The position numbers and the translations under genes are program-made. A DNA stretch of 35,697 nt from Vicinamibacteria bacterium. GTDB taxonomy: Bacteria; Acidobacteriota; Vicinamibacteria; Fen-336. The notes under the pieces are model-generated. The model worked only from the letters and a program-made list of their open reading frames with translations, did no database searches and was not told the origin of the DNA. The stretch lies in NCBI GenBank assembly GCA_025923995.1, contig JAICEW010000020.1:1-35697 (forward strand), given 5' to 3'. Shown one piece after another: positions 17,260 to 29,631 of this stretch. Numbering within the stretch: the stretch's first letter is position 1; the number at the start of each line of letters is the position of its first letter.

Positions 17260-18921
17260 ATGCCGCCGCAATACATCTTCGTGATGAAGGACCTGCGGAA
17301 GGTCACGCCGCAGGGCAAGGAGATCCTGAAGGGCATCTGGCTGTCCTTCTACCCGGGCGCCAAGATCGGCGTCCTGGGCGCGAACGGAGCGGGCAAGTCC
17401 ACGCTGCTCCGCATCATGGCCGGCCAGGACAAGGACTTCGCGGGCGAGGCGTTCGCGGCCGACAAGACCACGATCGGCTACCTGCCGCAGGAGCCGCAGC
17501 TCGATCCCAGGAAGAACGTCCTCCAGCACGTCGAGGAGTCGGTCGCGGACAAGCGCGCGGTCCTCAACCGCTACGAGGAGCTGTCGGCCGACTGGTCCGA
17601 GGAGAACGCGGACGAGCTGGGCCGGCTGCAGGACCAGATCGACGCCGGCAACCTGTGGGAGCTGGACCGCCAGCTCGAGATCGCGATGGACGCGCTGCGG
17701 CTGCCGCCTCCGGACGCGGACGTCACGACGCTCTCGGGCGGTGAGCGGCGCCGCGTCGCCCTGTGCCAGATCCTCCTGCGGAAGCCGGACCTGCTGCTGC
17801 TGGACGAGCCGACCAACCACCTCGACGCCGAGTCGGTCGCGTGGCTGGAGCGGCACCTGCAGGAGTACCAGGGCACGGTGGTCGCGATCACGCACGACCG
17901 CTACTTCCTGGACAACGTGGCCGGCTGGATCCTGGAGCTGGACCGCGGGGCCGGCATCCCGTGGGAGGGCAACTACTCGTCCTGGCTGGAGCAGAAGAAG
18001 AACCGCCTGGCCCAGGAGGAGAAGGAAGAGAGCAAGCGCCAGCGCACGCTGGACCGCGAGCTGGAATGGGTGCGCATGTCCCCTCGCGCCCGCCAGGCGA
18101 AGGGCAAGGCGCGCCTGTCCCACTACGAGGAGCTGCTGGCGGAGCAGCAGGCCGCCGACAAGCGCGACGGCGCCGCGGAGATCACGATCCCGCCCGGCCC
18201 GCGCCTGGGCGACCTGGTGATCGAGGCCAGGGACCTGCGCAAGGCCTACGGGGACAACCTGCTGATGGACGACGTGGACTTCATCCTGCCCCGCGGCGGC
18301 ATCGTGGGCGTGATCGGGCCCAACGGCGCGGGCAAGACCACGCTGTTCCGCATGATCCTGGGCCAGGAGAAGCCGGACGCGGGCTCGCTCAAGATCGGCG
18401 AGACGGTCGTGCTGTCGTACGTGGACCAGTCGCGCGACTCGCTGATCGGCGAGCGCACCGTCTGGGAGGAGATCTCCGACGGCGGCAAGGACATCGTGAT
18501 GGTGGGCAAGCGCGAGGTGAACTCGCGCGCCTACTCCGCGTCGTTCAACTTCCGGGGGCCGGACCAGCAGAAGAAGGTCAAGGACCTCTCGGGCGGCGAG
18601 CGCAACCGGCTGCACCTGGCCACGCTGCTCAAGAGCGGCGGGAACCTGCTGCTGCTGGACGAGCCCACCAACGACCTGGACGTGGACACGCTGCGCGCGC
18701 TGGAGGAGGCCCTCGTGGGCTTCGCCGGGTGCGCGGTCGTGATCAGCCACGACCGCTGGTTCCTGGACCGCATCGCCACCCACATGCTCGCGTTCGAGGG
18801 GGACAGCCAGGTCGTGTGGTTCGAGGGGAACTACCAGGACTACGAGGCGGATCGGAAGCGCCGGCTGGGCGCCGAGGCCGATCAGCCTCACCGGATCAAG
18901 TACAGGAAGCTGACGCACTGA
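17260..18921 (+). CDS. ettA: Energy-dependent translational throttle protein EttA (ABC-F)
   Basis: A 553-residue ABC-F ATPase, close to the E. coli EttA length of 555. EttA binds the ribosomal E site and gates the first elongation steps according to ATP/ADP. There are two ABC domains: Walker [10 protein letters not shown] (40-48) with signature LSGGERRR and [15 protein letters not shown]; then GPNGAGKTT with LSGGERNR and [14 protein letters not shown]. Between them lies the charged P-site tRNA interaction motif ([17 protein letters not shown] ... [22 protein letters not shown]). It starts [15 protein letters not shown], the family N-terminus; the frame is open further upstream but without homology. 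No membrane domain, as expected. It appears monocistronic. Confidence 0.95.
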
Positions 18922-19029
18922 ACGTAAGCCACCTCACAGACATCCTGAGGGCGGTCGTCGTACAAAGGCACATCGGAAGGGCACAGGGTCGTCTCCCTCC
19001 AGTCGAGCGGTCGTGAGCGACACGTCCGT

Positions 19030-19043
19030 GTGACCTCGGTCAC
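19030..19043. promoter_or_regulatory. 14-base palindrome upstream of the ECF sigma pair
   Basis: GTGACCTCGGTCAC is a perfect inverted repeat ending 17 bases before the ATG of the first ECF sigma-like gene. It is a possible operator or autoregulatory site. No -35/-10 pair typical of ECF factors was recognised nearby. Confidence 0.35.
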
Positions 19044-19060
19044 CGGGCTTCGTGAGGCGC

Positions 19061-19855
19061 ATGGGAACCTCGATCCAGGTCAATCGAGCGCCGGGGCGGT
19101 TGAGGTCGGGCGCCGCCTGGCCCGCCGCCGACACCGGCCTGCCGGCCCTGCCCGCCGTGGCGACGGCGCCGGAGGCGTCGCGCCCGCCGGACGCCGCCGC
19201 CCGCTTCGACGCCCTCCTGGCCCAGTACGACCGGCTGATCCGGGCGATCGTGGCGCGCCTGGGCCGGCGCTTCGGCGTCCGCCGCGACAGCTACCTGGTG
19301 CAGGACGACATCGCGCAGGAGGTCCGCTTCGACCTGTGGAAGCAGATCGCACGCGGACAGGTGATCGACTTCCCGGCCACCTACATCTACAAGGCGACGA
19401 TCCGGGAGACCGTGCGCGCCCTGCGACGGATGACCTCGCGCGAGATGGAGTCGATCGACGAGGACGGGGGCGCCGGGGAGGTCGTCGACGGCGCCGACCC
19501 GTTCAAGATCCTGGCGGCGCGCGACCAGTTCAAGGCGATCCTGGCCGGCATCCGGGCGCTGGCCCCGGAGCGCCAGGCCGCGGTCCGCGCCCACCTGGAG
19601 GGGTTCCAGTTCCAGGAAGTGATGGCGATGCACGGCTGGAGCTACCAGAAGGCGCGCAACCTGGTCGCCCGAGGCATGTCGGACCTGCGCGCCGGCCTTT
19701 GCGGGGAGACGCGTCCCCGGCGCAAGCGCTCGAGCGACCCCAGGCTGGCCGGCATCCACGCCCAGCTGGAAGCCCTCAGGGCCAACCTGCGGCTGCTCCA
19801 GGAGAAGCGCGGGGTGGTGCGCCTCGAGGCCACCCACGGCCGGGTACGCAAGTAG
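19061..19855 (+). CDS. ECF-type sigma factor-like protein (first of a tandem pair)
   Basis: A 264-residue protein with ECF sigma architecture. Region 2 lies at about 45-130 (FDALLAQYDRLIRAIVARLG ... DDIAQEVRFDLWKQIARG ... YIYKATIRETVRALRR). Region 4 lies at about 160-215 (LAPERQAAVRAHLEGFQFQEVM, MHGWSYQKARNLVARGMSDLRAGL). The HTH reads MHGWSYQKARN rather than the common gls-GTVKSR, so it is divergent. There is a Pro/Ala-rich N-terminal extension of ~45 residues and a basic tail of ~40 residues with a possible coiled coil (IHAQLEALRANLRLLQEK). ATG 19061 is used; GTG 19052, three codons earlier, is possible. The start region lacks a strong SD. Its paralogue follows 79 bases later. Confidence 0.78.
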   Translation: MGTSIQVNRAPGRLRSGAAWPAADTGLPALPAVATAPEASRPPDAAARFDALLAQYDRLIRAIVARLGRRFGVRRDSYLVQDDIAQEVRFDLWKQIARGQVIDFPATYIYKATIRETVRALRRMTSREMESIDEDGGAGEVVDGADPFKILAARDQFKAILAGIRALAPERQAAVRAHLEGFQFQEVMAMHGWSYQKARNLVARGMSDLRAGLCGETRPRRKRSSDPRLAGIHAQLEALRANLRLLQEKRGVVRLEATHGRVRK

Positions 19856-19934
19856 CGCCGCCTCAAGGCGATAGGCCCCTCTGACGTTCCCGCGGGGGCT
19901 TAGAATATCCCCGAGGAGTTCCTTCCAGGAGGCC

Positions 19935-20486
19935 GTGCGACCCTTGTCGAGCCCCCATGCCGATGCGGGACCGCTGTCGGGCCGGGAGACCCGGTTCGAA
20001 GGGATGGTCCGGCAATACGGCCGTCTCATCAGCACCGTCGTGGCCCGCGTGGGCGGCCAGGCCACCAGCCTCTTCCGGGAGGACATCGAGCAGCAGGTCC
20101 TCATCGAGCTGTGGAGGCAGGTCGACCGCGAGCAAAAGATCGATCACCCTTCCTCTTATCTATACAGGGCGGCTGTACGGGAGACCGTCCGGGTGCTGAA
20201 GCGGGAGCTCTCCCGCGAGGCCGCGGCGCCGTCCGCCGAAGGTCCGGGCGGGGGCGAGAGCCCGTTCCAGTCGCTGGCGGTGAAGGAGCAGGCGGCCGCG
20301 GTGGAGGCGTGCGTCGCGGCGCTGCCGGTGGACCGGCAGCGCGCGGTGCGCGCCCACCTGGCGGGGGTCGACGTGCGGGAGGTCATGCGGATGCACGGCT
20401 GGCCGTACCAGAAGGCGCGGAACCTCATCGCGCGCGGTATGGCGGAGCTGCGGGCGGCACTCCACGACAGGGGCATCCATGGCTGA
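19935..20486 (+). CDS. ECF-type sigma factor-like protein (second of a tandem pair)
   Basis: A 183-residue protein with ECF length and layout. Region 2: FEGMVRQYGRLISTVVARVG ... FREDIEQQVLIELWRQVDREQ ... YLYRAAVRETVRVLKRE. Region 4: LPVDRQRAVRAHLAGVDVREVMRMHGWPYQKARNLIARGMAELRAAL. It is clearly paralogous to the preceding gene, sharing RxTVRxLxR, RAHLxG and MHGWxYQKARNLxARGM. GTG 19935 is the start, with GGAGG two bases upstream. The last 8 bases (ATGGCTGA) overlap the next gene, which encodes a zinc-finger anti-sigma protein, so this copy is the likely partner of the anti-sigma. The inducing signal is unknown. Confidence 0.8.
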   Translation: MRPLSSPHADAGPLSGRETRFEGMVRQYGRLISTVVARVGGQATSLFREDIEQQVLIELWRQVDREQKIDHPSSYLYRAAVRETVRVLKRELSREAAAPSAEGPGGGESPFQSLAVKEQAAAVEACVAALPVDRQRAVRAHLAGVDVREVMRMHGWPYQKARNLIARGMAELRAALHDRGIHG

Positions 20487-21156
20487 AGCGGAGCAGACGC
20501 TGCGAGGCCTGTACGCGCTGCGCGAGTCGCCGGCCGACCCGCACCTCGGAGAGGACGACTGGCTCGCGCTGGCGAGCGGAGAGGGGCCCGCGTCGCACCG
20601 CGAGCGCGCGATCGACCACGTCGTGCGGTGCGCCTCCTGCGCCCGCGTCTACCGCGGGCTGACCGAGCTGGAGGAGGGCGCGCGGGAGTTCGACAAGCGG
20701 GCGCCGCAGGTGCTGGGGCCCGCGCCGCTGGACGCGCTGGGCACGACGCGATGGGTCTGGTGGGGAGGGCTGGCGGCAGCCGCCACGCTGGTCTGGGCCA
20801 TCGCGCAGCCGCGCCCCGCCCTGGCACCGGCGCCGCAGCCGAACGGCTCGGAGCTGCGCGGGCCGGAGCAGACGCGACCCGTGCTCCTCGAGCCCCTGGG
20901 CGCGGTCGTGCGCTGGCCCGAGCGGCTGCACTGGGAGCCGGTCGCGCAGGTGCGCGGGTACCGCGTGACCATCCTGGACGGCGAGGGCAACGAGCTGTGG
21001 GCGAGCCCCCTCCTCGCCGAGACCGCCATCGCGTGGCCGGCCCAGGTCCCGGCGCGGGCCGGGCGCGTCTACTGGCAGGTCACCGCCTATCCGCAGGGCG
21101 CCACCGACGCCGACGGCGTCGCGTCGGTCCTCGCCAGCTTCGATTACCAGCGCTAA
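20479..21156 (+). CDS. Membrane anti-sigma factor with zinc-finger motif and periplasmic domain
   Basis: A 225-residue protein. The cytoplasmic N-terminus carries the anti-sigma zinc motif HxxxCxxC (H47, C51, C54 in DHVVRCASC). One transmembrane helix follows at about 92-109 (WVWWGGLAAAATLVWAI), then a Pro-rich linker. The periplasmic part of ~90 residues resembles a fibronectin-III-like fold (LHWEPVAQVRGYRVTILD ... GRVYWQVTAYPQG). It presumably holds the adjacent ECF factor at the membrane and releases it on an envelope signal, by analogy with ZAS proteins. The ATG lies inside the end of the sigma gene (8-base overlap), consistent with 1:1 translational coupling. Cognate pairing is inferred from position only. 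Confidence 0.8.
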   Translation: MAEAEQTLRGLYALRESPADPHLGEDDWLALASGEGPASHRERAIDHVVRCASCARVYRGLTELEEGAREFDKRAPQVLGPAPLDALGTTRWVWWGGLAAAATLVWAIAQPRPALAPAPQPNGSELRGPEQTRPVLLEPLGAVVRWPERLHWEPVAQVRGYRVTILDGEGNELWASPLLAETAIAWPAQVPARAGRVYWQVTAYPQGATDADGVASVLASFDYQR

Positions 21157-21202
21157 GCGCTCTCTCTCGTTCGCGTTCTCCGCCGCGCCGCGGTCCTCGC
21201 GG

Positions 21203-21208
21203 TATGAT
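21203..21208 (+). promoter_or_regulatory. -10-like box TATGAT upstream of the aminoacylase-family gene
   Basis: TATGAT matches the -10 consensus in five of six bases, 40 bases before the ATG. No matching -35 box is visible at 16-18 bases. Confidence 0.3.
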
Positions 21209-21248
21209 CCTCGCGCCCGCCTCAGGACGCGAAAGGAACCAGGGTTTC

Positions 21249-22934
21249 ATGCACGTTCGGCTTTGCGCCGGCCTCCTCGCCTCGCTGAGCGCACTCGCCA
21301 CGGCCTACGCGGCCGACCACCCGCTCACGGTGATCCGCGGAGGGACCGTGTACGACGGCACCGGCTCTCCCGGGCGGGTGGCCGACGTGGTGATCCGCGG
21401 CGACCGCATCGAGCGCGTCGGTGACGCGTCGTCCCTCGAGGCCGAGACGGTCGTGGACGCGCGCGGCCTGGCGGTCGCCCCCGGGTTCATCAACATGCTC
21501 TCCTGGTCCACCGAGTCGCTGCTGGTCGATGGCCGGTCCCAGGGCGAGGTCCGCCAGGGCGTGACCACGCAGATCATGGGCGAGGGTTGGTCCATGGGCC
21601 CGCTCACGGACGCCATGAAGAAGCGGATGAAGGAGGACCAGGCCGACCTCAAGTTCGACGTGGTCTGGACGACGCTGGCCGAGTACCTGGCGCACCTGGA
21701 GAAGAAGGGCGTCTCACAGAACGTCGCGTCGTACGTCGGCGCCGCCACCATCCGCGAGCACGTGATCGGCCTCGACGACCGGCCGCCCACGCCGGCCGAG
21801 CTCGAGACGATGCGGGGCCTGGTCGAGAAGGAGATGCGCGCGGGCGCGCTCGGCATCGGCACCTCGCTCATCTACGCCCCCGGCTTCTACGCGAAGACCG
21901 AGGAGCTGATCGAGCTGTGCAAGGTCGCGGCCCGGTACCAGGGCAAGTACATCTCGCACCTGCGCAGCGAGGGCGACCGCTTCCTGGAGGCCATCGACGA
22001 GCTGATCCGCATCAGCCGCGAGGCGGGCCTGCCGGCCGAGATCTACCACCTGAAGGCGGCCGGCGAGTCCAACTGGCCCAAGCTGGAGCAGGCCGTGGCC
22101 CGGGTCGAGGCCGCGCGCAAGGAAGGCCTGGCCGTGACCGCGGACATGTACACCTACACCGCGGGAGCGACGGGCTTCGACGCGTGCGTGCCGCGCTGGT
22201 CCCTGGAAGGCGGCCAGCCCGGCTTCCGCGAGCGCCTCAAGGACAAGGCGACGCGCGCGCGGATCCTCAAGGAGTCGAGCACGCCCGGCACGGGCTTCGA
22301 GAACCTCTGCCTGGCCACCGGCTCGCCCGAGCGCATCCTGCTGGTCGGGTTCAAGACCGACCGGCTCAAGCCGCTGACCGGCCGCACGCTGGCCGACGTC
22401 GCGAAGGAGCGCGGGAAGGAGCCCTTCGACGTGATGCTGGACCTCATGAACGAGGACCAGACGCGCATCGAGGTCGTGTTCTTCCTGATGTCGGAGGACA
22501 ACGTCCGCAAGCAGCTCCGCCTGCCCTGGGTCTCGTTCGGTTCGGACGCGTCCTCGATGGCGCCGGTCGACCCCTTCACGCGCTCCTCCGCTCACCCGCG
22601 CGCCTACGGGAACTTCGCGCGCCTGCTCGGCAAGTACGTGCGCGAGGAGAAGCTGGTCACGCTGCCGGAGGCGATCCGCCGGCTGAGCGGCCTGCCCGCG
22701 GCCAACCTGGGGCTCGCCGACCGCGGGACGCTGGCCGCGGGCCGCTTCGCCGACGTCGTGGTGTTCGACCCGGACACGATCGCGGACCGCGCCACGTTCG
22801 AGCAGCCGCACCAGTACGCGGTGGGCGTGAAGCACGTGTTCGTGAACGGGGTGGCGGTGCTGAAGGACGGCGAGCACACCGGCGCGCTGCCCGGACGCGC
22901 GCTCAAGGGACCGGGCGCGACGGCGAGGCCCTAA
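21249..22934 (+). CDS. D-aminoacylase-family amidohydrolase lacking the HxH metal motif
   Basis: A 561-residue secreted protein (signal MHVRLCAGLLASLSALATAYA) of the N-acyl-D-amino-acid deacylase / amidohydrolase superfamily. The beta-sandwich pieces are clear: VIRGGTVYDGTGSPGRVADVVIRGDRI at the start and ADRGTLAAGRFADVVVFDPDTI near the end. Retained ligands are H237 (YISHLRSEGD), H267 (EIYHLK) and D433 (FGSDASS). The HxH after strand 1 (GFIDxHxH in active enzymes) is GFINMLSWS, so both His are gone (L84, W86), and the usual GNCG Cys segment reads GEGW. I recall a subgroup with exactly this INMLSW pattern annotated as deacylase. Metal content and activity are uncertain. AAAGGAA lies upstream of the ATG. 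The next gene starts 4 bases after the stop. Confidence 0.85.
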   Translation: MHVRLCAGLLASLSALATAYAADHPLTVIRGGTVYDGTGSPGRVADVVIRGDRIERVGDASSLEAETVVDARGLAVAPGFINMLSWSTESLLVDGRSQGEVRQGVTTQIMGEGWSMGPLTDAMKKRMKEDQADLKFDVVWTTLAEYLAHLEKKGVSQNVASYVGAATIREHVIGLDDRPPTPAELETMRGLVEKEMRAGALGIGTSLIYAPGFYAKTEELIELCKVAARYQGKYISHLRSEGDRFLEAIDELIRISREAGLPAEIYHLKAAGESNWPKLEQAVARVEAARKEGLAVTADMYTYTAGATGFDACVPRWSLEGGQPGFRERLKDKATRARILKESSTPGTGFENLCLATGSPERILLVGFKTDRLKPLTGRTLADVAKERGKEPFDVMLDLMNEDQTRIEVVFFLMSEDNVRKQLRLPWVSFGSDASSMAPVDPFTRSSAHPRAYGNFARLLGKYVREEKLVTLPEAIRRLSGLPAANLGLADRGTLAAGRFADVVVFDPDTIADRATFEQPHQYAVGVKHVFVNGVAVLKDGEHTGALPGRALKGPGATARP

Positions 22935-28685: not shown

Positions 28686-28722
28686 CCCTGACGTCCCCCG
28701 TTTGACCCGCCGGAAGGCCACG

Positions 28723-29631
28723 ATGCCCGCCCCCAGGAAGAAGAAGGCGACGCCCAAGACGTCCCGCACGGCCAAGCCCAGCCGGACCCCTGCCGAGCGG
28801 GTCGGGGGCGGCGACAGCCTCAACGCCTACATCCGCGAGATCTCGCGCTTCAAGCCGCTCTCGGGCGACGACGAGAAGATCCTCGGCCGCCGCATCCAGG
28901 AGGGGGACCAGGAGGCATTGCAGCAGCTGGTCGAGGCCAACCTGCGCTTCGTGGTCTCGTACGCGAAGCGGTACCGCGGCCTGGGCGTGCACTTCCTGGA
29001 CCTCATCCACGACGGGACGCTGGGCCTCATCGAGGCGGCCAAGCGCTTCGACCCCGAGCGCAACGTCAAGTTCATCTCGTACGCGGTGTGGTGGGTGCGC
29101 CAGGCCATCTTCCACGCCCTCTCGGAGCACACGCGCGTGTTCCGGCTGCCGCAGAAGCTGTCCGGCCAGATCTCCAAGGTGGGCAACGCGCGGCAGCAGC
29201 TGACGGTGGAGCTGGAGCGCCCGCCCACCACGGAGGAGCTGGCCCAGAAGACCCAGCTGAGCCCGGAGGAGGTGGAGGAGCTGCTGAAGGTGGCGGGGGA
29301 CGACCTCTCGCTCTCCACCGCCGTCGGGGAAGAGGGCAGCCTGGAGCTGGGCGACACGCTGGAGCAGGACACCATCCCCTCGGTCGAGCTGGAGATGATG
29401 CGCAGCTCCTTCGAGGAGCAGATCCGCGCGCTGGTGGCCGAGCTGGACGAGAAGGAGCGCGAGGTCATCCGCATGCGGTTCGGCCTGGACGGCGAGGAGC
29501 CGCGCACGCTGCAGGAGATCGGGGAGACGCTGGGGCTGTCGCGCGAGCGCATCCGCCAGATCGAGAGCAAGGCCAAGGAGAAGCTGCGCCGCAGCAACCG
29601 CGCGCAGGGGCTGCGGGGAGCGCTCAACTGA
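28723..29631 (+). CDS. RpoD/RpoS-type sigma-70 factor (group 1/2, short form)
   Basis: A 302-residue primary-like sigma factor without region 1.1 or the long non-conserved region. A Lys-rich N-terminus (MPAPRKKKATPKTSRTAKPSR) is followed by region 1.2/2 (DSLNAYIREISRFKPLSGDDE ... NLRFVVSYAKRYRGLG ... FLDLIHDGTLGLIEAAKRFDPERNVKFISYAVWWVRQAI), region 3 (RLPQKLSG ... RPPTTEELAQK) and region 4.2 (RTLQEIGETLGLSRERIRQIESKAKEKLRR). Size suits a group 2 factor such as RpoS-type or a stripped-down SigA. ATG 28723 has GGAAGG five bases upstream; the TTG at 28702 has none. Its TGA overlaps the DnaC-like gene's ATG by one base, so the two are coupled. Which promoters it serves is unknown. Confidence 0.88.
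   Translation: MPAPRKKKATPKTSRTAKPSRTPAERVGGGDSLNAYIREISRFKPLSGDDEKILGRRIQEGDQEALQQLVEANLRFVVSYAKRYRGLGVHFLDLIHDGTLGLIEAAKRFDPERNVKFISYAVWWVRQAIFHALSEHTRVFRLPQKLSGQISKVGNARQQLTVELERPPTTEELAQKTQLSPEEVEELLKVAGDDLSLSTAVGEEGSLELGDTLEQDTIPSVELEMMRSSFEEQIRALVAELDEKEREVIRMRFGLDGEEPRTLQEIGETLGLSRERIRQIESKAKEKLRRSNRAQGLRGALN

Follow-up and report, generated by a model that had tools for sequence, protein, structure and literature searches.

A tandem pair of sister ECF-like sigma factors at one membrane anti-sigma gene, and the TPR-CHAT-linked sigma family around it

How is one anti-sigma divided between two sister sigma factors? The tandem pair described here is a natural case of this question. It lies in the window, by which we mean the whole 35.7-kb acidobacterial contig that was analysed, where three genes of the same direction stand between genes for an ABC-F protein (17260-18921) and an amidohydrolase (21249-22934). 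Sigma 1 (19061..19855, plus strand, 264 aa) is identified by its open reading frame, its profile matches and its position as sister of sigma 2 as an ECF-like sigma factor and diverged tandem paralogue; its start was read as the ATG at 19061, with a GTG at 19052 as the alternative. Sigma 2 (19935..20486, plus strand, 183 aa), a second ECF-like sigma factor by reading frame and profiles, starts with the GTG at 19935. The third gene (20479..21156, plus strand) encodes a membrane anti-sigma factor of 225 aa, recognised from its reading frame, a fold model, an alignment of relatives and profile matches in the PDB.

Two sigma factors and a zinc-motif anti-sigma

Both upstream proteins are ECF-like factors of the sigma-70 family, transcription factors of the stress type. 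They match Pfam Sigma70_r2 and Sigma70_r4 as well as TIGR02937, and they carry regions 2 and 4 without regions 1.1 and 3, the composition of ECF (group IV) factors, albeit at low scores of about 32 bits. With TIGR02937 the two score 31.7 and 32.6 bits, both below the cut-off of 42.9; the Pfam cut-off is passed only by Sigma70_r2 in sigma 2, and neither protein reaches the cut-off of any NCBIfam ECF subfamily, the scores falling far below every one. Foldseek matches of the sigma 1 model are ECF sigma factors, and its region 4 matches that of SigE on -35 DNA (2h27) and the -35 domain bound by RslA (3hug). A non-sigma DNA-binding origin of region 4, which the sequence-only reading had raised against its own claim, was checked and is ruled out by these fold and profile matches. 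The two factors share 83 of 181 residues (46%, E 2e-48, BLASTP; 49-50% in alignments) and are sisters in a tree of 73 family members (support 98/93), a placement that makes the pair a local duplication. That they are tandem paralogues, as was first proposed, is thus borne out by profiles, fold, identity and tree.

Sigma 2 alone overlaps the anti-sigma gene, also in agreement with the sequence-only reading: the end of sigma 2 and the start of the anti-sigma have 8 nt in common, and the same overlap recurs in several close relatives. The anti-sigma carries an HxxxCxxC zinc motif (H47, C51, C54; 20617..20640, plus strand) that is invariant across 15-22 relatives. Pfam anti-sigma zinc-finger models find no match in this protein; the motif sits in an N-terminal helical domain, the arrangement that characterises ZAS-type factors. 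A likely transmembrane helix (20752..20814, plus strand), suggested by a hydrophobic stretch and by helix 95-108 of the model, is followed by the FN3-like domain of the original proposal (20869..21153, plus strand), which is modelled as an all-beta sandwich (pLDDT 90-97) with FN3 matches and presumed to be periplasmic. The likeness to FN3 folds is modest, with a best Foldseek E of about 1e-3, and the anti-sigma profile also matches the Fn3-like protein 3mpc. Against the PDB, the profile built from 15 relatives gave weak matches to RslA, DdvA and ChrR (E 0.007-0.026); a stronger one (E 2.5e-5) was to the N-terminus of 8rot, an entry that was deposited as 'CHAT domain-containing protein'. Elsewhere in the same sigma clade (L053-L056, L063) the outer domain of the anti-sigma shifts from FN3-like to longer TPR-like sequence.

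A clade signature and linkage to TPR-CHAT genes

The region 4.2 recognition helices of sigma 1 (GWSYQKARNLVARGM; 19634..19678, plus strand) and sigma 2 (GWPYQKARNLIARGM; 20397..20441, plus strand) share the pattern GW(S/P)YQKARNL(V/I)ARGM and differ at 3 of 16 positions. This helix had been taken for an anomaly of the two proteins. In the family tree, both belong to a clade of 20 (support 97/95) from Acidobacteriota and Myxococcota, and W.Y(Q/N/H)(K/R)(A/T)RNL(V/I) is present in all 20 aligned clade sigmas; as judged from the alignment, at least 20 sigma factors have therefore inherited the 'unusual' helix as the signature of their clade, and it is not peculiar to the window. A second clade, which includes Myxococcus and Corallococcus, has (K/R)(R/Q)T(E/D)NL(V/I)YRG(L/M) in most members. 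No promoter motif common to the upstream regions of family sigmas rose above shuffles, so that common target promoters are suggested by the helix alone. The word TTGCTC(A/C)C, seen by eye and considered as a family promoter, was rejected: it occurs in 5 of 19 sequences tested and in neither of the two window genes.

The sequence-only reading missed the main context of these proteins, which is that a gene for a caspase-like TPR-CHAT protein normally accompanies the sigma family. We collected 63 family loci by an alignment-based scan of genome contigs, in which a single-protein query matched nothing. With 8 kb flanks read, a TPR-CHAT gene lies within 1.6 kb of the sigma in 55 of 62 evaluable loci, a count that is slightly favoured because a positive was accepted however short its contig, whereas a negative had to have at least 2.5 kb of sequence downstream. 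Of these genes, 38 are downstream on the same strand, 12 are convergent downstream and 5 are upstream. By contrast with this frequency, the chance expectation, estimated from the 19 CHAT genes in the 6.8 Mb window genome, is roughly 2%, and only 3 of the 56 ECF-like matches in that genome have a CHAT gene within about 2.1 kb. In the wider family, sigma and TPR-CHAT usually come with an anti-sigma of the window's kind, and the linkage of sigma, zinc anti-sigma and secreted-looking TPR-CHAT spans Acidobacteriota, Myxococcota, Gemmatimonadota and Pseudomonadota (L014, L015, L054-L057, L062-L064, L066, L068, L070, L121-L180). Pfam finds both CHAT and TPR in five such proteins checked, four of them sigma-linked; a TPR-CHAT sequence query had no match in the PDB. 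Judged by eye and by pattern, an apparent signal peptide opens several of the linked CHAT proteins, and the His and Cys motifs are retained in most.

The window itself contains no CHAT gene. All 19 CHAT family matches of its genome lie outside it, several with N-terminal secretion-like sequences, and behind the third family sigma of this genome (L013) come its anti-sigma and then a TPR protein cut at the contig end. Because relatives usually have a TPR-CHAT gene beside sigma and anti-sigma, the window locus is an uncommon local form of a broader signalling module that has been little studied, and not a new kind of system. The linkage of the sigma family to TPR-CHAT is a stronger lead than the tandem pair, and the family a larger prize, directly testable in Myxococcus xanthus.

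Three known systems bear on what the linkage may mean. For CASP, the data favour a model in which inhibition of a sigma factor is relieved when Csx30 is cleaved (PMC10028731). This type III-E CRISPR system (Csx29-Csx30-sigma) resembles the window's wider family in encoding a TPR-CHAT protease, an anti-sigma and an ECF sigma together, but Csx29 is RNA-guided through Cas7-11, whereas the family's linked CHAT proteins have apparent signal peptides and no CRISPR link was seen among them; nor does Pfam find a CRISPR protein among the window proteins scanned. Csx29-Csx30 is a precedent, by analogy only, for possible CHAT proteolysis of the anti-sigma in this family. The second system, DdvS/DdvA of M. 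xanthus, likewise pairs an ECF sigma with a membrane anti-sigma, DdvA (8rlz) being among the matches of the window anti-sigma profile. The residues of 8rot and DdvA are identical in the profile alignments, so 8rot appears from its sequence to be DdvA, its zinc domain and a CHAT part being joined in one chain; in the window's sigma family, by contrast, the CHAT protein is separate and secreted-looking, and in the window it is absent. DdvS/DdvA was considered as a member of this family and rejected, since the DdvA sequence is absent from the M. xanthus family locus (L168). Third, ECF54 has been noted to have CHAT genes in its genetic context (PMC8999054); this group is described as being without an anti-sigma, whereas many loci of the window's sigma family have one. 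The linkage across four phyla suggests that CHAT proteases may activate ECF sigma factors quite generally and outside CRISPR systems.

Two further, distantly related ECF sigma genes adjoin CHAT genes in the window genome (L079:1986-6194, L081:6433-9768), one pair divergent and the other convergent; next to the first of them lies an anti-sigma-like gene. The CHAT protein beside the G042 sigma (L014:9668-12736) resembles an unlinked CHAT protein of the window genome (L084:6350-9283; E 2e-114), and both seem to begin with a PDZ-like stretch.

One anti-sigma and its two candidate partners

For this tandem sigma duplication inside a unit of ECF sigma and membrane ZAS-type anti-sigma, we give somewhat better than even credence to a reading in which sigma 1 provides a second output of one signal. 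Sigma 2 is most likely the cognate partner of the anti-sigma, the best candidate because of the gene overlap common to several relatives. The zinc domain would hold sigma 2 inactive at the membrane until an envelope signal on the FN3-like domain caused the anti-sigma to be inactivated or cleaved, which would set sigma 2 free. Having kept its core residues and a similar -35 recognition helix, sigma 1 may act on similar promoters; its extensions, a 5-residue insertion and its divergence could make inhibition by the same anti-sigma weaker, different or absent, and the changed inhibition would yield the second output. That the anti-sigma also serves sigma 1 is plausible because a single anti-sigma, FpvR, controls two ECF sigmas, FpvI and PvdS, in Pseudomonas aeruginosa (PMC4256889). 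The likeness lies in two ECF sigma factors with one membrane anti-sigma, for which the window offers gene order and paralogy only; FpvI and PvdS have low mutual identity and belong to cell-surface iron signalling, whereas the window sigmas are tandem sisters, and their neighbouring anti-sigma has an FN3-like domain. Counting against a joint output with sigma 2, sigma 1 has its own upstream region.

It is possible, though we consider it distinctly less probable, that sigma 2 alone is under the anti-sigma and that sigma 1 works independently, through its extensions or its own transcription, above or below sigma 2 in a cascade. The sigma 1 model (mean pLDDT 77.5) places sigma2 helices at residues 45-134 and sigma4 helices at residues 147-213, their relative orientation being unreliable (pTM 0.44). 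Ahead of these lies an N-terminal extension (residues 1-44; 19061..19192, plus strand; GC3 0.94) that is predicted to be disordered (pLDDT about 50), and behind them a basic C-terminal extension (19712..19852, plus strand; GC3 0.94) modelled with one 33-residue helix (residues 227-259) and missing in nearly all aligned relatives. GC3 stays at 0.94-0.96 along the whole gene, both extensions included, as coding sequence would show, and the extensions noted from the sequence at the outset are in this sense real. Such a tail and helix would suit an independent factor, and so would the 79-nt gap ahead of sigma 2 (19856..19934, plus strand); an anti-sigma is often missing from ECF groups that have extensions (PMC8999054). 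However, the extensions match no known regulatory domain in Pfam, clade members are mostly encoded beside an anti-sigma, and neither the upstream motif search nor the gap scan yielded a promoter assignable to either sigma: in the gap, no sigma-70 promoter, intrinsic terminator or special RNA fold was recognised (fold z-score -0.6).

More doubtful still is the proposal that the window holds, in detached form and with its sigma duplicated, a widespread non-CRISPR module whose secreted TPR-CHAT protease would cleave the outer domain of the membrane anti-sigma to release the ECF sigma; in the window, the two sisters would compete for one anti-sigma, and CHAT would act from elsewhere in the genome. 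Under the favoured reading, too, any CHAT protease involved would have to derive from one of the 19 CHAT genes outside the window.

Divergence and retention of the pair

The reading that we favour, a second output from the duplicated sigma, has sigma 1 diverged but functional. Its end branch in the tree is about twice as long as that of sigma 2 (0.79 vs 0.38). Tajima-type relative-rate counts lean to change on sigma 1 with most outgroups, but chi2 exceeds 3.84 in only 6 of 18, and the rate difference is uneven between outgroups. In the clade alignment sigma 1 keeps all 20 invariant columns and all 28 columns with at least 90% conservation, among them those in region 2 and in the recognition helix; of the 47 columns with at least 80% it keeps 36, and every relative keeps more (38-47). 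Sigma 1 could in principle be a decoy that titrates the anti-sigma or the promoters without productive transcription, as its asymmetric divergence and the loss of 11 of these 47 positions might suggest. Yet the retention of all 28 near-invariant residues makes a decaying decoy unlikely, and the intact gene shows a strong coding bias. From the alignment, sigma 1 reads as a constrained but specialised protein.

The sequence-only reading had proposed looking for the pair in related genomes. No second sigma tandem was found among the matches of 193 genomes of the class and 396 of the phylum, and since scoring was confined to the top candidates of each genome, rarity of the tandem is likely, not proven; none of the 63 family loci has one either. 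In three same-family genomes the ABC-F and amidohydrolase genes are kept with other genes in the interval that corresponds to window positions 18922-21248: as named from their sequences, a membrane TPR-like protein in one, and a PilZ-like protein, a secreted-looking protein and an NtrC-type regulator in the other two. The sigma cassette therefore lies in a variable interval and may have been either gained in the window genome or lost in the relatives. Neutral redundancy, with the pair kept by chance and without distinct roles, would fit its presence in one genome only and the unrelated genes in this interval, but is very improbable: both copies remain intact at about 50% divergence, a sign that constraint has kept them for a long time.

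Further along the window (28702-29628), right after dnaK and dnaJ, lies a gene for a sigma-70 factor with regions 1.2, 2, 3 and 4.
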